NCBI GenBank assembly: GCA_031406795.1
Contig: JANOHV010000196.1
Location: 1 to 12,172 of the forward strand
DNA: 12,172 bases
From: DATDCY01 sp031406795 [NCBI: Candidatus Rokuibacteriota bacterium]
Lineage (GTDB): Bacteria > JAUVQV01
Direction of reading: 5' to 3'
The notes under the pieces are model-generated. The model made no database searches, had not been told where the DNA came from, and worked only from the letters and a program-made list of their open reading frames with translations. Shown here one piece after another: positions 2,811 to 9,102 of the stretch (its first letter is position 1; each line of letters opens with the position of its first letter). A program made the position numbers and the translations under genes.

Positions 2811-5360
2811 TCACGCCCGGGAAAGCCCCGCGGGCGCCGCGAGCTCCACGTGCTGGACCAGTTGGGTCACATCGAGGATCAGGGCCACGGTGCCGTCGCC
2901 GAGGATCGTCGCCCCCGAGAACCCGCGGACCTCCCGGAACAGGCGCCCGAGCGGCTTGATGACCGTCTGCTGTCCGCCGATCACCCGGTCGACGACCAGG
3001 CCGACGCGCTGGCCATCGGTCTCGGTCACGACGATCTGCTCGCGCGCGGGCGCCGCGCCGGGCACCCGGAACCAGTCGCGCAGCCGCACATACGGCACGA
3101 GTTCGCCGCGGATCTCGGCCAGCGCTCGCTCCCGGCCCTCGTCCCCGGGACGGCGCACCAGTTCGACGCACTCCTTCACGACCGCCAGCGGCAGGATCAG
3201 GTGATCGCCGCCGAGCACGACCTCGAGACCCTCGATAATCGCCAGCGTGAGCGGGATGCGAATCTCGAACGCGGTAGCCTCGCCGCTGCGGCTCTCGACG
3301 TGCACCCGGCCGCGCAGCGACTCGACGGTGCGCTTGACCACGTCGAGCCCCACGCCCCGCCCGGAGATCGTCGTGACTTTGTCGCTGGTCGAGAAACCCG
3401 GCAGGAACATCAGCGCGTGGAGTTCCCGTTCCGTCCGCTGGTCGCCCTCCGCGATCAGGCCGCGGTGCACCGCCTTGCGCCGCACCGCCTCGGCGTCGAT
3501 GCCCGCGCCGTCGTCCTCGACGCGGATGACGACATTCGCGCCGGCGTACGACGCGCTCAGCCGCACAGTGCCGCGCTCGGGCTTTCCGGCGCGCAGACGC
3601 TGCCCGCGCGGCTCGATGCCGTGATCGATGCTGTTGCGCAGCAGATGGACGATCGGGTCGTTGAGCCGGTCGATGACGTTCTTGTCCAGTTCGGTGTCCT
3701 CCCCCTCGGTCCTCATCTCCACGTCGCGGCCGATCTCATGCGAGAGATCGCGCACGAGCCGGCGGAACTTGCCAAAAGCCGGGCCGATGGGCACCATCCG
3801 GACGCTCAGGCTGTGATCGCGCAATTCCGCCGTCAGCCGCTCGACCTCCTCGGCGACCCCGAGCAGCTCCGGGTCCGACTGCCGGCTGGCCAGCAGCGTC
3901 AGGCGCGCCTGAACCGTGACCATCTCACCCACGAGATCGACCAGCTTGTCGAGCTTCTCCGCCGCCACCCGCAACGTGGAGGCGACTTCGCCCGACTTGC
4001 GCAGCGCCGCCTCTGCGACGGAGCCGCGCTGCACCCCGGCCGGTCCCTCGCCTCGGGCGGCGGGGATTTCACCGGGAGGGCGAGGGCCGCACTCGTCCGC
4101 GTCGCTCGCCGGTGCGAGCTGCGCGCGAGCGGTGAGCGCGGGACCGGGTGGGACCGGCGCCTCGGCGCTGCTCAGCGGAGTGATCGCGACGGCGGCGTCC
4201 CCGCCGACGAAGATGAACGCGTCGCGAATCTCCGGCAGCGTATGGTTCGTGGTCAGCAGGATCTCCCAGGAGAGGTAGCAGGCACCCGGGTCGATCGACT
4301 CCAGGGCGGGCACCTCGTCGAGGAGCGCGGTCACGGTGCACTCCCCCATCCTCTGCAACTCCTCGAACACCAGCAGCGGGTCGGTTCCCCCGGCGAACAG
4401 GGAGCGGTCGGGCTTGAACAGCAGCCGCCAGGCGACGGGAGCCGCCGGGACGGCGCGATCGCCCGGCGGAACGGCGTCGATCTCGCCATGAGCGCGCATC
4501 CGCTGGAAGGTCGTGATTTCGCGGGCCCGGAGCTCCTGCTCCGCGTCGTCGTCGACGCCGGCGAGCAGGCTCAGGATCCGGTCACGGGCCTCGAGCGTCA
4601 TGTCGATCAGCTCCCGGGTGACCGGCAGCCGGCTGGCCCGCAGCTGGTCGAAAACGCTCTCGAGTTCGTGCGCGAAGGCTTCGAGCTCCGTGTAGCCGAA
4701 CATCCCCGCATTGCCCTTGATGGTGTGCAGCGCGCGGAACGCCCGGGCAATGAGTTCCTCGTCGTGCGGACTGCTCTCCAACGCCATCAAGGCGCCCTCC
4801 AGGTCGGCGAGCAGGTCTCGCGCCTCGTCCTTGAAGTGCGCCACGAGGGCGGCAGGAAGCGGCTCGGGCCCCTTCTGCAGCGATGCCCGCCCCGTGGTCA
4901 TCGCCGCGCGCTCAGCCGGCGCCCGGGCGGCCTCCGGCGAACCGGCATCCTCGAGCACCCGCGCGATCCGTCGCCGGGCGACATCGCGCAGGCGGGCCTC
5001 CGCGGGGGTGTCGTCGGCGGGGTCGAGAAGTGCGAGCAGTCGGTCCTTCGCGCCAAGCGTCAGGTCGATGATCTCGGGCGAAACCCGCATCTTTCCCTTG
5101 CGCAGCAAGTCGAAGACATGCTCGAGATCGTGGGCGAACTCCTCCAGCGCGGCGAAACCGAACATTGCGCCGTTGCCTTTGATGGTGTGCAGGGCGCGAA
5201 AGGCCCGCCCCACCAGCTCGTCGTCGTCCGGACGCCGCTCGAGTTCCATGATGGCGGATTCCATGTCGCAGAGCAATTCGCGGGCTTCGTCGCGAAAACC
5301 GCCGATCAGCGCCGGCAGAATGTCATCCAACGTCTCGTCGGGCTGCAGCGGTTCAGCCAT
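2811..5360 (-). CDS. cheA: CheA, chemotaxis histidine kinase with two HPt domains
   Basis: CheA autophosphorylates under control of MCP/CheW arrays and passes phosphate to response regulators, here including CheB. The 849-residue protein has two consecutive HPt domains with nearly the same core, RAFRALHTIKGN: His58 in the first and His212 in the second. Next comes an adaptor-like domain (about 311-393) in the P2 position, then P3 dimerisation (about 455-520). The P4 ATPase has the N box HLLRNSIDHGIE (572-583), G1 EDDGAGID (615-622), a GFSTS loop (655-659) and G2 GRGVGLDVV (668-676). A CheW-like P5 domain follows (about 707-836). The chosen ATG at 5360 overlaps the end of the STAS gene by 8 bp, consistent with coupled translation; an upstream extension to 5405 adds only non-conserved residues. 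No C-terminal receiver domain is present. It is longer than E. coli CheA (about 650) because of the second HPt and linkers. Confidence 0.97.
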   Translation of the reverse strand: MAEPLQPDETLDDILPALIGGFRDEARELLCDMESAIMELERRPDDDELVGRAFRALHTIKGNGAMFGFAALEEFAHDLEHVFDLLRKGKMRVSPEIIDLTLGAKDRLLALLDPADDTPAEARLRDVARRRIARVLEDAGSPEAARAPAERAAMTTGRASLQKGPEPLPAALVAHFKDEARDLLADLEGALMALESSPHDEELIARAFRALHTIKGNAGMFGYTELEAFAHELESVFDQLRASRLPVTRELIDMTLEARDRILSLLAGVDDDAEQELRAREITTFQRMRAHGEIDAVPPGDRAVPAAPVAWRLLFKPDRSLFAGGTDPLLVFEELQRMGECTVTALLDEVPALESIDPGACYLSWEILLTTNHTLPEIRDAFIFVGGDAAVAITPLSSAEAPVPPGPALTARAQLAPASDADECGPRPPGEIPAARGEGPAGVQRGSVAEAALRKSGEVASTLRVAAEKLDKLVDLVGEMVTVQARLTLLASRQSDPELLGVAEEVERLTAELRDHSLSVRMVPIGPAFGKFRRLVRDLSHEIGRDVEMRTEGEDTELDKNVIDRLNDPIVHLLRNSIDHGIEPRGQRLRAGKPERGTVRLSASYAGANVVIRVEDDGAGIDAEAVRRKAVHRGLIAEGDQRTERELHALMFLPGFSTSDKVTTISGRGVGLDVVKRTVESLRGRVHVESRSGEATAFEIRIPLTLAIIEGLEVVLGGDHLILPLAVVKECVELVRRPGDEGRERALAEIRGELVPYVRLRDWFRVPGAAPAREQIVVTETDGQRVGLVVDRVIGGQQTVIKPLGRLFREVRGFSGATILGDGTVALILDVTQLVQHVELAAPAGLSRA

Positions 5361-5724
5361 GATCCGGAGCACATCCTTCCGGCGTCTCGGGGGCCAGATC
5401 ATCATCCCAGAGGCAGCGTCCGGGACAGCCCGGGCCCCGCCGCGCGCCCGCGGCGCAGATCAGCCGCCGAACCGCAGCAGCCGCCGCCAGGCCGCCGAGG
5501 CTAAAGGTGATCGCGCGGGCGGCGGCCGTGTGATGAGCCGCGCACAGCAACTGCAGGAAGCTCAGATCGACCTCCCCGACCTCACGCATCTCCAGACAGA
5601 CCCGGGTTTTCTCCTCGAAGGCCTGCAGCAGAGCCTGCTGCAGAAGGCCGGCCTGCGAGGCGCAGAACTGCCCGCCGGCCACAACGACCGCCTCGTCCCC
5701 CCGGTGCTCGATGCCGATCCGCAT
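5353..5724 (-). CDS. STAS-domain protein of the chemosensory operon
   Basis: A 123-residue protein of the STAS (anti-sigma-factor antagonist-like) fold. It has an N-terminal beta strand pair (IGIEHRGDEAVVVAGGQF), a central LEMREVGEVDLSFLQLLCAAH segment matching the STAS switch region, and a Cys-bearing tail with GCPGRCLW (99-106). In classic SpoIIAA-type STAS proteins the switch reads Asp-Ser-Ser, with the first Ser phosphorylated. Here it is Asp53-Leu54-Ser55, so the usual phosphoacceptor position is Leu. It has seven cysteines. The ATG at 5724 follows an AGGGG about 8 bases upstream; the gene starts 37 bp after the GAF-gene stop and overlaps cheA by 8 bp. Small STAS proteins are known next to cheA in some proteobacterial clusters, but their role is poorly defined; a scaffold or partner-switch role here is inference. 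Confidence 0.8.
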   Translation of the reverse strand: MRIGIEHRGDEAVVVAGGQFCASQAGLLQQALLQAFEEKTRVCLEMREVGEVDLSFLQLLCAAHHTAAARAITFSLGGLAAAAAVRRLICAAGARRGPGCPGRCLWDDDLAPETPEGCAPDHG

Positions 5725-5761: not shown

Positions 5762-6592
5762 CTAGCCGAGGGCGACGGCGAGGCCGTCGTCGGCGCCCGA
5801 CCAGTCAAGGACCTGGCCGCTGCGACTGAACGTCCGGGCGCCGATGAGCGTCGCCGCGGCCTGAGCCGCGAGCAGACCGAGAATCTCCTGATCGAGCGGG
5901 GTGAACCCCTGCTTCTGCTCGAGCAGCTTGTAGATGGCGAGGACGCCGACCGGTCGCTCCTCGAGCTTGAGCGGAATGCACGAGACCGGCTCGCCCGCGG
6001 TCGCCGGTGCTCCTCCCGGAGCGCCGTACCACGGCTCACCTGCGCGCAGCGTCTGCCAACGCTCCGCCGGCAACCTCACCGGCTTCCCGTCCAGCAGGCC
6101 GCACTCGTCCGTGACACTCACCAGCTGCATCCTGCCGGAACCGGCGTCGAGCAGCCAGATCCCGAAGACCTCGGCGCCAACCAGGTTCAGCATGATCTCG
6201 CGGATGATCGTAATCACTGATTCCTCGTTGAGCGTCGAGTGCAGCTGATACCCCGAAACGTAAAGGTTGAGCAGACTCTCGTTCTGGTGCTCGACCTCCT
6301 GGTAGCGTTGGCGGAAATCCTCGTTCTCGCGATTCAGCGCCTCGAACTGCGACTTGATCTCCTCGAGCTGCCGGCGCAGCTGCTGGTTCTCGCTGAGGAC
6401 GTCCTGGTGCCGGTCTTCCGGCGCCCGGGACACGCTGGACAGCTCCTGCTGCAGATGAAAGACCTTGTAGCGCAGGCGCTCGTTCTCCCGCATGATCTCG
6501 TCGACGAAGGTCTTGCTGCGGGCATAGGCGCGAACCGCGCCCTCGGCGGCCGGCAAATGCTCCTGCGCGTCCTTCTCTTTCTTCTGGCTCAT
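5762..6592 (-). CDS. Coiled-coil/GAF-domain protein, first gene of the cheA run
   Basis: A 276-residue soluble protein. Residues about 29-110 are a long heptad-rich, strongly charged helix (many Glu, Gln, Arg; Leu at regular spacing), predicted to form a coiled coil. Residues about 114-252 look like a GAF domain: LHSTLNEESVITIIREIMLNLVG, then GIWLLDAGSGRMQLVSV, a middle loop, SCIPLKLEERPVGVLAIYKL, and a final helix DQEILGLLAAQAAATLIGA. No catalytic domain follows, so it probably senses a ligand or scaffolds other proteins; the ligand cannot be told. The ATG at 6592 has a good Shine-Dalgarno (GGGAGGAACAGGA). It heads the run GAF-STAS-cheA-cheR-cheB-cheD and diverges from the plus-strand gene at 6760. 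A role in tuning CheA output is inference from position. Confidence 0.8.
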   Translation of the reverse strand: MSQKKEKDAQEHLPAAEGAVRAYARSKTFVDEIMRENERLRYKVFHLQQELSSVSRAPEDRHQDVLSENQQLRRQLEEIKSQFEALNRENEDFRQRYQEVEHQNESLLNLYVSGYQLHSTLNEESVITIIREIMLNLVGAEVFGIWLLDAGSGRMQLVSVTDECGLLDGKPVRLPAERWQTLRAGEPWYGAPGGAPATAGEPVSCIPLKLEERPVGVLAIYKLLEQKQGFTPLDQEILGLLAAQAAATLIGARTFSRSGQVLDWSGADDGLAVALG

Positions 6593-6668
6593 CGGTCCTG
6601 TTCCTCCCTGCCGTGCCTGCCCCCGACCCGCTGCTGTCGCCTGCGGCACCAACGCGGGCCACAGTTGC

Positions 6669-6680
6669 CTGAAGATAGCA
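6669..6680 (-). promoter_or_regulatory. Possible extended -10 promoter for the GAF-cheA run
   Basis: The minus strand reads TGCTATCTT (TATCTT at 6677-6672), an extended -10 element matching TATAAT at four of six positions. No convincing -35 is seen 16-18 bp upstream. Transcription would start near 6665, giving a leader of about 70 bases before the GAF ATG. It is the best candidate in this 167-bp divergent gap but weak. Confidence 0.2.
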
Positions 6681-6745
6681 CAGTTGGCGAGCCGGAGAGC
6701 GATGTCCGACGCGCACTTTCTCTGGCCTCCCGGCGCCATGGCGGC

Positions 6746-6751
6746 TATAAT
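6746..6751 (+). promoter_or_regulatory. Perfect TATAAT -10 box just upstream of the J/MshEN gene
   Basis: A full match to the sigma-70 -10 consensus in otherwise very GC-rich DNA. It lies only 8 bp before the ATG at 6760, so transcription would begin at about 6758-6760. The bases between are CCCCCCTG with no Shine-Dalgarno. Together this suggests a leaderless mRNA. The -35 region is poor (TGGCCT at 6723-6728 for a 17-bp spacer). Confidence 0.45.
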
Positions 6752-6759
6752 CCCCCCTG

Positions 6760-7521
6760 ATGAACGCGGCATGCCGGAGCGAACTGCTTGCAGCCTGCCG
6801 GCTGCTCTTCGACCGGGAACTCGACGCGACGTTTCTCGACCATCTTCAGGAATCCGGGCTCAGGGCCGCCTGGCGGCTCAAGGCGCTCCAGACGCACCCG
6901 GATCGGGCGGTCGGGCAGGCGGCAAAGGTGCGTCAAACCGAACGCTTCATCGCGGCCCGCCTCGCGTACGGCCTGCTCAAAGCGCACCTGGGAGATCGCG
7001 CGGAGGGCCGCGAACCGGCCCCCCCGCGTGCCCCCCGCCCCAGCACCGTCCCGCACCGGCCCTGGCGGCCGCCCGCACCGCGGCAGCCTCCGCCGCGATC
7101 CGATGCGCCGCGGCAGAAAGGCCCCGCCCCGGTCGCCGGCGTTCCGCGAAGGCGCCTGCGGCTCGGCGAATTCCTGTACCACTCCCGGGTCATTACCTTT
7201 GCAGCGCTCGTGGAGACGCTCGTCTCCCAGCGTCGCCAGCGCGAACGCTTCTGCGAAATCGCGCTGCGCTGGGGCTATCTCACAAATGGGCAGCTAAGCA
7301 TCCTCCTCGCCCGGCGACTGCCGCTGGAGCTCATCGGGGAGACCGCGCATCGCCTGCAGCTCCTCACGCCCCCTCAGATCCGCCTGGTGCTGACGTTTCA
7401 GCGGATGCGCCAGGAGCCGCTCGGGAGGCTCTTCGTGCGCCGCGGACTGCTCACGAGCCGCCGCCTGGAGGAGCAGCTCGGCCGGATGGTCCGGCACAAC
7501 GCCTCGCTCCCCGCCGGTTGA
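6760..7521 (+). CDS. J-domain-like protein with two consecutive MshEN-type modules
   Basis: A 253-residue protein I do not recognise as a named gene. Residues 1-78 resemble a DnaJ J domain: a helix ending LKALQT, the HPD triad at 46-48, then a helix QTERFIAARLAYGLLKAHL. J domains recruit and stimulate Hsp70 (DnaK). Residues 82-130 are a Pro/Arg-rich linker. Residues 134-243 hold four 24-residue motifs of the MshEN type (RLGxxLLxxGLLxxxxLxxxLxxQ): 134-157, 163-186, 191-214 and 220-243. Each pair is separated by exactly five residues, the layout of cyclic-di-GMP-binding MshEN domains. Motif 1 keeps Arg134-Leu-Gly and Gln157 but has Arg in place of the mid Gly; motif 4 keeps LG, Gly229 and the Leu positions but has Pro220 for Arg. 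No signal peptide or membrane segment is seen. Cyclic-di-GMP binding is plausible but unproven. Confidence 0.72.
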   Translation: MNAACRSELLAACRLLFDRELDATFLDHLQESGLRAAWRLKALQTHPDRAVGQAAKVRQTERFIAARLAYGLLKAHLGDRAEGREPAPPRAPRPSTVPHRPWRPPAPRQPPPRSDAPRQKGPAPVAGVPRRRLRLGEFLYHSRVITFAALVETLVSQRRQRERFCEIALRWGYLTNGQLSILLARRLPLELIGETAHRLQLLTPPQIRLVLTFQRMRQEPLGRLFVRRGLLTSRRLEEQLGRMVRHNASLPAG

Positions 7522-7578
7522 TTCCTGCGTGTCCCGATGGAGCTTGTGCGATCGCGGCTTTCGTAATCCACCTGTGTC

Positions 7579-7587
7579 TGCTAAGGT
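7579..7587 (+). promoter_or_regulatory. Possible extended -10 promoter for MCP-C
   Basis: The 114-bp gap before MCP-C contains TGCTAAGGT, an extended -10-like element (TAAGGT at 7582-7587 matches TATAAT at three of six positions). The -35 position (TTTCGT, 17 bp upstream) is weak. Read-through from the J/MshEN gene is the alternative. Confidence 0.15.
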
Positions 7588-7635
7588 ACGGTTCAGAAAA
7601 GACTCACACTTTGCCGAAAGAGGGAGAATGACCAG

Positions 7636-9102
7636 ATGCCGTCGCTCGCAGGTATCGTCCTGCCGATCGTGCTGACCGCCGCCGGCGGCCTGCTGCTCTC
7701 GCGCGGGAGAAGCTCCGCTTCGTCTCTCCGCGCCCGCGGGGACGGAGCCGGCAAGCGGCCTTGCCGACCGGACCTCGACGGGAGAATCCCGGATCGCGGG
7801 CTGTTCGGACTGCGCTCCGGCCTCGTGGCGCGTGTGAATGCGCTGCTCGGCGAGGTTGGCTCCTGCCTCAAGCATCTCTTCTTGAGCGGATTGGAGCAGA
7901 CGAGGTTGTCGGACAGCGTCAAGCGGGACGCCGGGGAGATGGCGGAGACCGCCGACCGGACCGAACGCCTCGCCGCGGAGGTGGCCAACGCGATGAGCGA
8001 GATGTCCGCCACCGTCGGAAAGATCGCCTTCACGGTCAGTCAGAACTCCGCGTCCCGCGGCGCTCTGGACAAGAGCGAATCCTCCGTGGAGAGCGTCAGA
8101 CGACTCTCCGTCCAGATTACCACCTGGGCCGAGACCAACAAGACGCTCTCCCAGGCCTCTGGCGAGATCTCCGGGTTTGTCGGCGTCATCAACGAAATCG
8201 CCCGGCAGACGAACCTCCTGGCTTTGAACGCCGCCATCGAGGCCGCGCGTGCCGGCGAGAAGGGTCGGGGCTTCGCCGTCGTCGCCGCCGAAGTCAGAAA
8301 ACTGGCCGACCGGACATCCGAATACACGAGGGAGATCGCCGGGGCCATCAGCGTGATCAGGCAGCAGGCCGAGAATTCGCTGGGAAACATGGAGGCCACG
8401 CTCAGCAGCGTCACCGAGAGCATCGAGAAGGCGGAGAACACCGACCGCTCGCTGCGGCAAATCACCTCGAAGGCGGCGAAGATCGCCAGCGAGGTCTCCT
8501 CGAGTATGCAGGAGGTTTCCGCGCATGCAACCAAGTCCCGCCTGCTCGCGGAGCGGCTCACCGAGTCCGGGGAAGCCGTCGCGCGCGGCACCCTGGAGAT
8601 GTATTCGCGTCTTTGCACATTCCAGACATCGGCAACCGACCGGATGATCGACGCGCTGCTCAACGCCGCAGCCGAGGAGTTCGGGGAAAAGCTGGCCCTG
8701 GACGTGGAAAGGGGCGCCCTCAGCGCAACGGACCTGTTCGACGAGAACTATCGGCCTCTCGACGGCGAGCGGTGCGCTTCGGGAGCAACGGACTATTTCC
8801 GGACCGAAATACTGCCGAAGCTTACCGCCTGGAGCGGGGGACACACCGGTATCATCTATGTCGTCGCGATGGATCGGAACGGTTTCATGCCGGTGCACGT
8901 GATGCCGGCCAGAAGCGGCGTCATCATGAAGGACCCGGTTTCTCAGCGCGGCGCGCGTGCGGACACCATTCTCGGCCAGGCCTTCAGGCGGCCCCTCCAG
9001 GCCGGCGGCGAACTGGTGGTCGACGTGGCGACGCCGATCGTCGTCGGCGGCCGCCACTGGGGCTGCCTCAGGATCGGTTACCTGCCGGATACCCGAGGCT
9101 GA
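7636..9102 (+). CDS. MCP-C, methyl-accepting chemotaxis protein with C-terminal sensor domain
   Basis: A 488-residue chemoreceptor with unusual domain order. An N-terminal hydrophobic segment (about 4-22) could anchor it; a basic, variable region follows. The signalling domain (about 90-330) has the conserved hairpin tip [20 protein letters not shown] into [20 protein letters not shown] (185-224), which contacts CheA and CheW. After it, residues about 335-486 form a Cache/PAS-like sensor with [16 protein letters not shown] (406-421) and [22 protein letters not shown] (461-482), a pattern I know from other MCPs with C-terminal sensors. The sensor should be cytoplasmic; its ligand is unknown. 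No HAMP domain and no C-terminal tether are seen. The ATG at 7636 has AGGGAG 9 bases upstream; an ATG at 7628 is out of frame. It converges on MCP-B with one base between the stops. Confidence 0.88.

Follow-up and report, generated by a model that had tools for sequence, protein, structure and literature searches.

The gene considered here raises the question of why a J domain would be joined to motifs of the MshEN type in the midst of chemotaxis genes, and whether such a protein could bring the DnaK system under the control of cyclic di-GMP (c-di-GMP). An initial annotation of the stretch of DNA in which it lies (12,172 nucleotides, here called the window) had described an HPD triad, a Pro/Arg linker and four 24-residue motifs, and had interpreted these as a chaperone-recruiting module under c-di-GMP control beside chemoreceptors. 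The described architecture (hereafter J-MshEN) was confirmed, the coordinates given in the annotation being exact (Table 1), except that the "exactly five-residue" spacers hold within both motif pairs but not between them, where the spacer has four residues (i.e. a spacing of 5, 4 and 5). Of the interpretation, the fusion of a J domain to two MshEN units stands, whereas the control by c-di-GMP is weakened and the linkage to chemotaxis is not kept among the homologues.

The window opens on the minus strand with genes for CheD, CheB, CheR, CheA, a STAS protein and a GAF protein, after which J-MshEN and a methyl-accepting chemotaxis protein (MCP) follow on the plus strand, and then an MCP, CheW and another MCP on the minus strand. 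Scanning of positions 6400-7800 for a promoter or terminator pattern gave none. The CheA of the window (2811-5405) has two Hpt stretches. In the MCP directly downstream of J-MshEN, the only sensor-like match is to sCache_3_2 (E 0.0039, below the cut-off), and it lies C-terminal to the signalling domain.

Table 1. Features of the J-MshEN gene and of its two direct neighbours (nucleotide positions in the window; residues of the J-MshEN protein).
Feature	Position	Strand	Basis or remark
Divergent GAF neighbour with coiled-coil-like stretch	5762..6592	-	ORF extends to 6772; start at 6592 picked by inspection
J-MshEN protein, 253 aa + stop	6760..7521	+	ORF; homologues begin at about the same position
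Divergent J domain, ~residues 8-77	6781..6990	+	PF00226 at residues 31-74; family members
HPD triad, residues 46-48	6895..6903	+	
Pro/Arg/Ala-rich linker, residues 81-130	7000..7149	+	17 Pro + 9 Arg in 50
MshEN motif 1, residues 134-157	7159..7230	+	NF053729 + residue comparison
MshEN motif 2, residues 163-186	7246..7317	+	NF053729 + residue comparison
MshEN motif 3, residues 191-214	7330..7401	+	residue comparison
MshEN motif 4, residues 220-243	7417..7488	+	residue comparison
C-terminal His246-Asn247	7495..7500	+	conservation in alignments
Downstream MCP with signalling domain	7636..9102	+	domain match

The only Pfam match reported for the window protein is to DnaJ (PF00226), which at 17.1 bits stays under the cut-off of 27.8. 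The profile is nevertheless matched by all 33 members of the family alignment (window included; E<=0.01, best 2.1e-9), and the family profile finds J domains among solved structures (best 1.1e-9), so that the DnaJ assignment falls short for the window copy by itself but is borne out by its family. The HPD triad stands between helices II and III in 81/81 members, window included, and A12, L16, F17 and R39 are invariant in the same 81. The triplet alone was set aside as evidence, the degenerate HPD DNA pattern having 4 matches in the window with 2.02 expected; because its occurrence is thus near chance, the claim of a J domain is carried by the profile and the family. On this family evidence the domain in the window copy is classed as a divergent J domain. 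Zinc repeats or a DnaJ C-terminal domain, by which a canonical DnaJ is defined, gave no Pfam match either in the window protein or among the 33 family members tallied. In J domains the HPD triad and the arginine of helix II are tied to the recruitment of DnaK and, as both are invariant here, the recruitment of DnaK has presumably been kept across the J-MshEN family.

The C-terminal part was recognised by NF053729 (the NCBIfam c-di-GMP_motif, related to MshE), which matches the window protein in two stretches with an E-value of 1.8e-13 (50.1 bits, cut-off 38), the best at residues 134-185 over profile positions 1-52 of 53, and which is matched by 33/33 members of the family alignment (E<=0.01). 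A phmmer search of the window protein against the PDB found MshE (5htl, E 0.0069, residues 130-207), and the family profile found PilF among solved structures at 0.0011, with no stretch passing alone. The Pfam profile that the initial annotation had put forward (PF05157, T2SSE_N/MshEN) gave no match, neither in the window protein at E<=1 nor in the 33-member tally at E<=0.01. Single-sequence AlphaFold predictions of the whole protein and of residues 122-251 were of low confidence (mean pLDDT 47.4 and 55.8, respectively). Both intra-pair spacers measure five residues in 81/81 members, while the between-pair spacer measures 4 in 74, 3 in 5 and 5 in 2 of them, as is expected of two 53-residue MshEN units that are loosely joined. 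The stretch from residue 80 to 134 spans 32 to 75 residues across the 81. Homologues lacking both the HPD triad and the spacing, which would have told against the initial annotation, were not encountered among the 81, both being kept in every member.

This architecture defines a widespread bacterial protein family that is apparently undescribed. A literature search (titles and the starts of abstracts) found no description of J-MshEN, and nothing on MshEN with a J domain or GSPII_E with DnaJ; a joint mention of MshEN and DnaJ concerned PilZ proteins. Searches for relatives with the single protein (a peptide pattern in genome and viral contigs, tblastn in plasmids) returned none, and scans of viral sequences with small family alignments returned 4 and 6 loci, all matching within the J region only. 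Genomes were reached via the sensor part of one of the window's MCPs, and the family was then found in them by whole-genome search. In the Desulfuromonadia-like class (of G001), 191/277 genomes hold a match at E<=0.001, a count that takes in MshEN proteins without a J domain; the best 30 of these matches all span from residue 1-8 to residue 247-253. With the family alignment as query, a match at E<=1e-20 was obtained in 43/395 genomes of the phylum of G001, and in 41 of these it included the J part. The Nitrospirota-like phylum (of G003) gave 43/198 genomes at E<=1e-15, of which 18 were judged to include the J part (within a single row or across two adjacent ones), plus a cut copy (G811), most other matches being stand-alone four-motif ORFs of ~125-163 residues. 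The phylum of G006 had 8/299 genomes matched, none with the J part, and that of G007, a phylum without a positive control, 0/95. Of 72 family rows, the 61 that no other row contained were retained, and 20 more brought the set to the 81 members used here (window included); L082-L086 were excluded for want of a J part.

The family is under purifying selection, as follows from dN/dS values of 0.05-0.33 in 9 close pairs of relatives. Outside the contacts named for MshE, R161 and N247 are present in 61/61 rows of the first alignment and invariant in the 33-member alignment, while H246 is present in 61/61 and nearly invariant, respectively. The invariant R161 and N247 would fit a protein surface that has been kept.

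Whether the MshEN units can still hold their ligand depends on the residues of the pocket. According to Wang et al. (PMC5013675), each motif of the form RLGxx(L/V/I)(L/V/I)xxG(L/V/I)(L/V/I)xxxxLxxxLxxQ takes half of the ligand. None of the four motifs of the window copy fits the relaxed form of this motif and no pair is fully intact. Motif 1 keeps R1, L2, G3, L17, L21 and Q24 and has Arg143 in place of Gly10; motif 2 has Cys165 for Gly3 and Arg186 for Gln24; motif 3 keeps G3 and Q24, with Leu191 for Arg1 and Gln200 for Gly10; and motif 4 keeps G3 and G10, with Pro220 for Arg1 and Met243 for Gln24. Arg143 and Pro220 had been pointed out correctly in the initial annotation, which missed the other replacements. 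An ATPase found in the same search (L082) served as positive control, and its motifs scored as intact (4/4 by a looser pattern, 3/4 by the relaxed one), which indicates that intact sites are detected where present. In the family, Gln24 of motifs 1-4 is found in 81, 0, 81 and 15 of the 81 members, position 1 is Arg or Lys in 26, 4, 52 and 47, and Gly3 occurs in 81, 80, 75 and 80. The consensus R, L, G, G, L, L, Q is loosely complete for pair 3-4 in 9/81 members, and for pair 1-2 in none.

Cys165 stands at the glycine equivalent to G40 of MshE, and the MshE variants G40I and G11L are reported to show no ligand response (PMC5013675). GSPII-A of PilF, in which a nearly perfect motif is paired with a degenerate one, is reported not to bind c-di-GMP (PMC11731258). 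Binding of c-di-GMP by the window copy is doubtful, and the canonical mode of binding has probably been lost. A firm verdict of loss is nevertheless withheld, because changes of Arg9, Asp12 and Gln32 in MshE cost at most a fivefold loss of affinity (PMC5013675), because GSPII-B of PilF is described as binding c-di-GMP at nanomolar concentrations without the arginines (PMC11731258), and because in pair 3-4 of the window copy each motif still has its Gly3 and is hydrophobic at positions 2, 17 and 21.

For the linkage to chemotaxis, 80 other J-MshEN neighbourhoods from 75 genomes were considered (40 + 20 + 20, each of at most 16.8 kb, some ended by contig edges), the loci being hand-picked and non-random (long contigs, second copies and distant members). 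The che, clp and aat genes were counted by phmmer with proteins of the window or of L128, L123 and L121, because the gene caller reported spurious antisense ORFs in some loci and in the window, which is rich in GC. A CheB-like gene lies within 8 kb in 5/80 neighbourhoods (L148, L156, L158, L162, L163), with ~1.5 expected from 84 CheB in 20 genomes (~76.7 Mb), a chosen background set with four of the linked genomes among them. As the five fall into three lineages, this excess is weak, and a conserved che linkage is not supported by the homologues. In L156 (G154) and L158 (G155), the J-MshEN gene comes directly after cheB, in a cluster whose proteins resemble those of the window (CheB 72%, CheW 66-67% and CheA 48% identical), and in L162 and L163 it is 3.4 kb from cheB. 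An MCP without other che genes lies at most 2.6 kb away (centre to centre) in L117, L120, L124, L125, L146 and L247, and weaker MCP matches lie near J-MshEN in L131, L252 and L261. A CheA like that of the window occurs in 150/277 genomes of the Desulfuromonadia-like class (E<=1e-120); by a by-eye comparison of the matches, ~75 genomes have both, yet the two are adjacent only in G154 and G155 among the matches listed with positions. In the tree, the window row is not grouped with L156 and L158, its position being unsure because of its long branch.

A different set of neighbours recurs in part of one class. Matches to both Aat and ClpA are found nearby in 12/80 neighbourhoods, all among the first 40. 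Aat, ClpA and ClpS all lie at most 6 kb away in L118, L119, L121, L123, L128, L130, L131, L132, L134, L144 and L145, while in L129 ClpA is cut and Aat is 7.7 kb distant; aat-clpA-clpS was not found in the other 40 of the 80. This block points to proteostasis, although it may be inherited gene order. In 10/80 neighbourhoods (L118, L119, L121, L123, L128, L130, L132, L134, L144, L145), a gene for a DUF815 AAA+ protein lies upstream on the same strand, an assignment made by Pfam in L121, L128 and L130 and by homology to L128 in the others. The outer neighbours of L128 and L130 differ, whereas the order RlmL-like methyltransferase, DUF815, J-MshEN, Aat, ClpA is constant between them. The recurrent block thus comprises the DUF815 AAA+ ATPase, J-MshEN, Aat, ClpA and ClpS, with the RlmL-like methyltransferase present in some of the 10 loci; a literature search found no paper that names DUF815 together with an ATPase. 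A PilZ gene lies upstream in 5/80 neighbourhoods (L118, L119, L123, L129 and L131, of which L123 and L129 were checked with Pfam).

The reading that we prefer, held with moderate confidence, is that J-MshEN is a specialised DnaK co-chaperone (an Hsp40) in which a degenerate double MshEN serves as partner-binding module, its control by c-di-GMP being doubtful. We infer that the J domain would recruit and stimulate DnaK, that the flexible Pro/Arg linker would connect it to the double MshEN, and that the latter would hold a client or partner for DnaK to act upon. This module would descend from the c-di-GMP-binding MshEN fold and, in the window copy, would more likely than not have given up canonical binding of the ligand and become a scaffold for a partner, which in the window may be a neighbour from the che cluster. 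Binding of a partner or client is the most likely role of the module.

It could also be that c-di-GMP still controls the co-chaperone, with the ligand bound at one MshEN pair (most likely 3-4) altering the exposure of the J domain or the binding of the client. We regard this as possible but rather doubtful. It would fit the NF053729 score above cut-off, the members with a loosely complete pair 3-4, the Gly3 and hydrophobic contacts that this pair keeps in most members as well as in the window copy, and the finding that neither Arg nor Gln is strictly required in MshE or in GSPII-B of PilF (PMC5013675, PMC11731258). The PilZ genes just upstream in five neighbourhoods and the existence of PilZ-DnaK chaperones in Myxococcus (PMC10313047) are likewise in line with it, but motif 2 is without Gln24 in all 81 members, and neither pair of the window copy is fully intact whereas the motifs of the L082 ATPase score as intact. 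Alternatively, the four-motif module might be a distinct type of receptor that retains a single guanine half-site in each unit (motifs 1 and 3). It would take up a guanine nucleotide or c-di-GMP in a dimer-spanning site and, in J-MshEN, would gate the delivery of clients to DnaK and, beside aat-clpA-clpS and the DUF815 AAA+ protein, to N-degron proteolysis; such a second-messenger-gated proteostasis switch seems quite unlikely to us.

That the protein serves the chemosensory system itself, i.e. by bringing DnaK to the array, CheA, CheB or the receptors of the window cluster, is suggested by the position of its gene between the CheA-side gene group and the MCPs, by the two loci where it directly follows a cheB that is 72% identical and the two where it lies 3.4 kb from cheB, and by related four-motif modules in ORFs whose C-terminal part resembles CheX (L083, L085 and L086, by eye), MshEN with CheX being known (PMC5013675). 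Given a CheB in only five of 80 neighbourhoods (three lineages) and adjacency to CheA in only two of the ~75 genomes that have both, among the matches listed, this reading is nonetheless unlikely. Finally, the J domain of the window copy might be a relic, the protein working through the MshEN module only or decaying. Its row has the longest end branch of the tree (1.67 changes per column), and it departs from near-invariant residues at S156 (Trp), E162 (Pro), C165 (Gly), I192 (Phe) and L224 (Tyr/Phe); because of this branch and the subthreshold PF00226 score, the function of the window copy may have drifted. On the other hand, its frame is open over the full length and HPD, R39, A12, L16 and F17 are all present. 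Where every other row agrees at a site of the module, the window row alone deviates only at 165 and 192. A relic is the least probable of these readings.

The nearest known systems are alike in part only. The N-terminus of Vibrio cholerae MshE shares the paired 24-residue motifs with their five-residue joint (PMC5013675), whereas J-MshEN is without the ATPase part, has two units in tandem and misses a key Gln, Arg or Gly in alternate motifs. Fusions of MshEN to CheX, CheA and other domains have already been published, and the main text of that paper (PMC5013675) names none with DnaJ. Thermus thermophilus PilF resembles J-MshEN in its consecutive MshEN-like units of unequal quality (GSPII-A/B/C), but is a traffic ATPase of which GSPII-B is reported to bind tightly without arginines (PMC11731258). 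In Myxococcus xanthus, the PilZ-DnaK chaperones CsdK1 and CsdK2 are described, as are four PilZ proteins that carry a domain of DnaK or DnaJ (PMC10313047, PMC8316039). These proteins likewise fuse a domain of c-di-GMP-receptor type to a protein of the Hsp70 system, and CsdK1 is without half of its binding motif, comparable to J-MshEN; they differ in that the domain is PilZ rather than MshEN and in that those studied belong to the Hsp70s, whereas J-MshEN is a J protein carrying two MshEN units. For CsdK2, the relevance of c-di-GMP binding is stated in these sources to be unknown (PMC10313047, PMC8316039). Shewanella AtcJ also joins a J domain to a short C-terminal part, which is, however, a 21-residue extension and not MshEN (PMC6715715).

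Should the module sense a messenger or bind a partner in signalling, the Hsp70 system would have a direct tie to second-messenger or chemosensory signalling in two bacterial groups of environmental importance. Even without ligand binding, a nucleotide-receptor fold would have been turned into part of a co-chaperone.

Related four-motif modules also occur outside J-MshEN. Stand-alone MshEN-like proteins of 124-151 residues (L223, L225-L240 and L242) were found in Nitrospirota-like and Pseudomonadota-like genomes, and, with the Che proteins of the window as queries, L232 is the only one of the stand-alone loci at which a che-like neighbour turned up, matching CheR. In the seven stand-alone proteins that were read (L195, L197-L202), motif 3 starts with RFGE in 5/7 and motif 4 is without Gln24 in 7/7, as in most J-MshEN. 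In L083, L085, L086, L224 and L241, four-motif modules open longer ORFs of 261-335 residues; by pattern, L083 has no intact motif, and L085, L086 and L224 (= L196) have one each. L084, which is CheA-like by eye, has MshEN-like motifs at 137-160 and 162-185, one residue apart.
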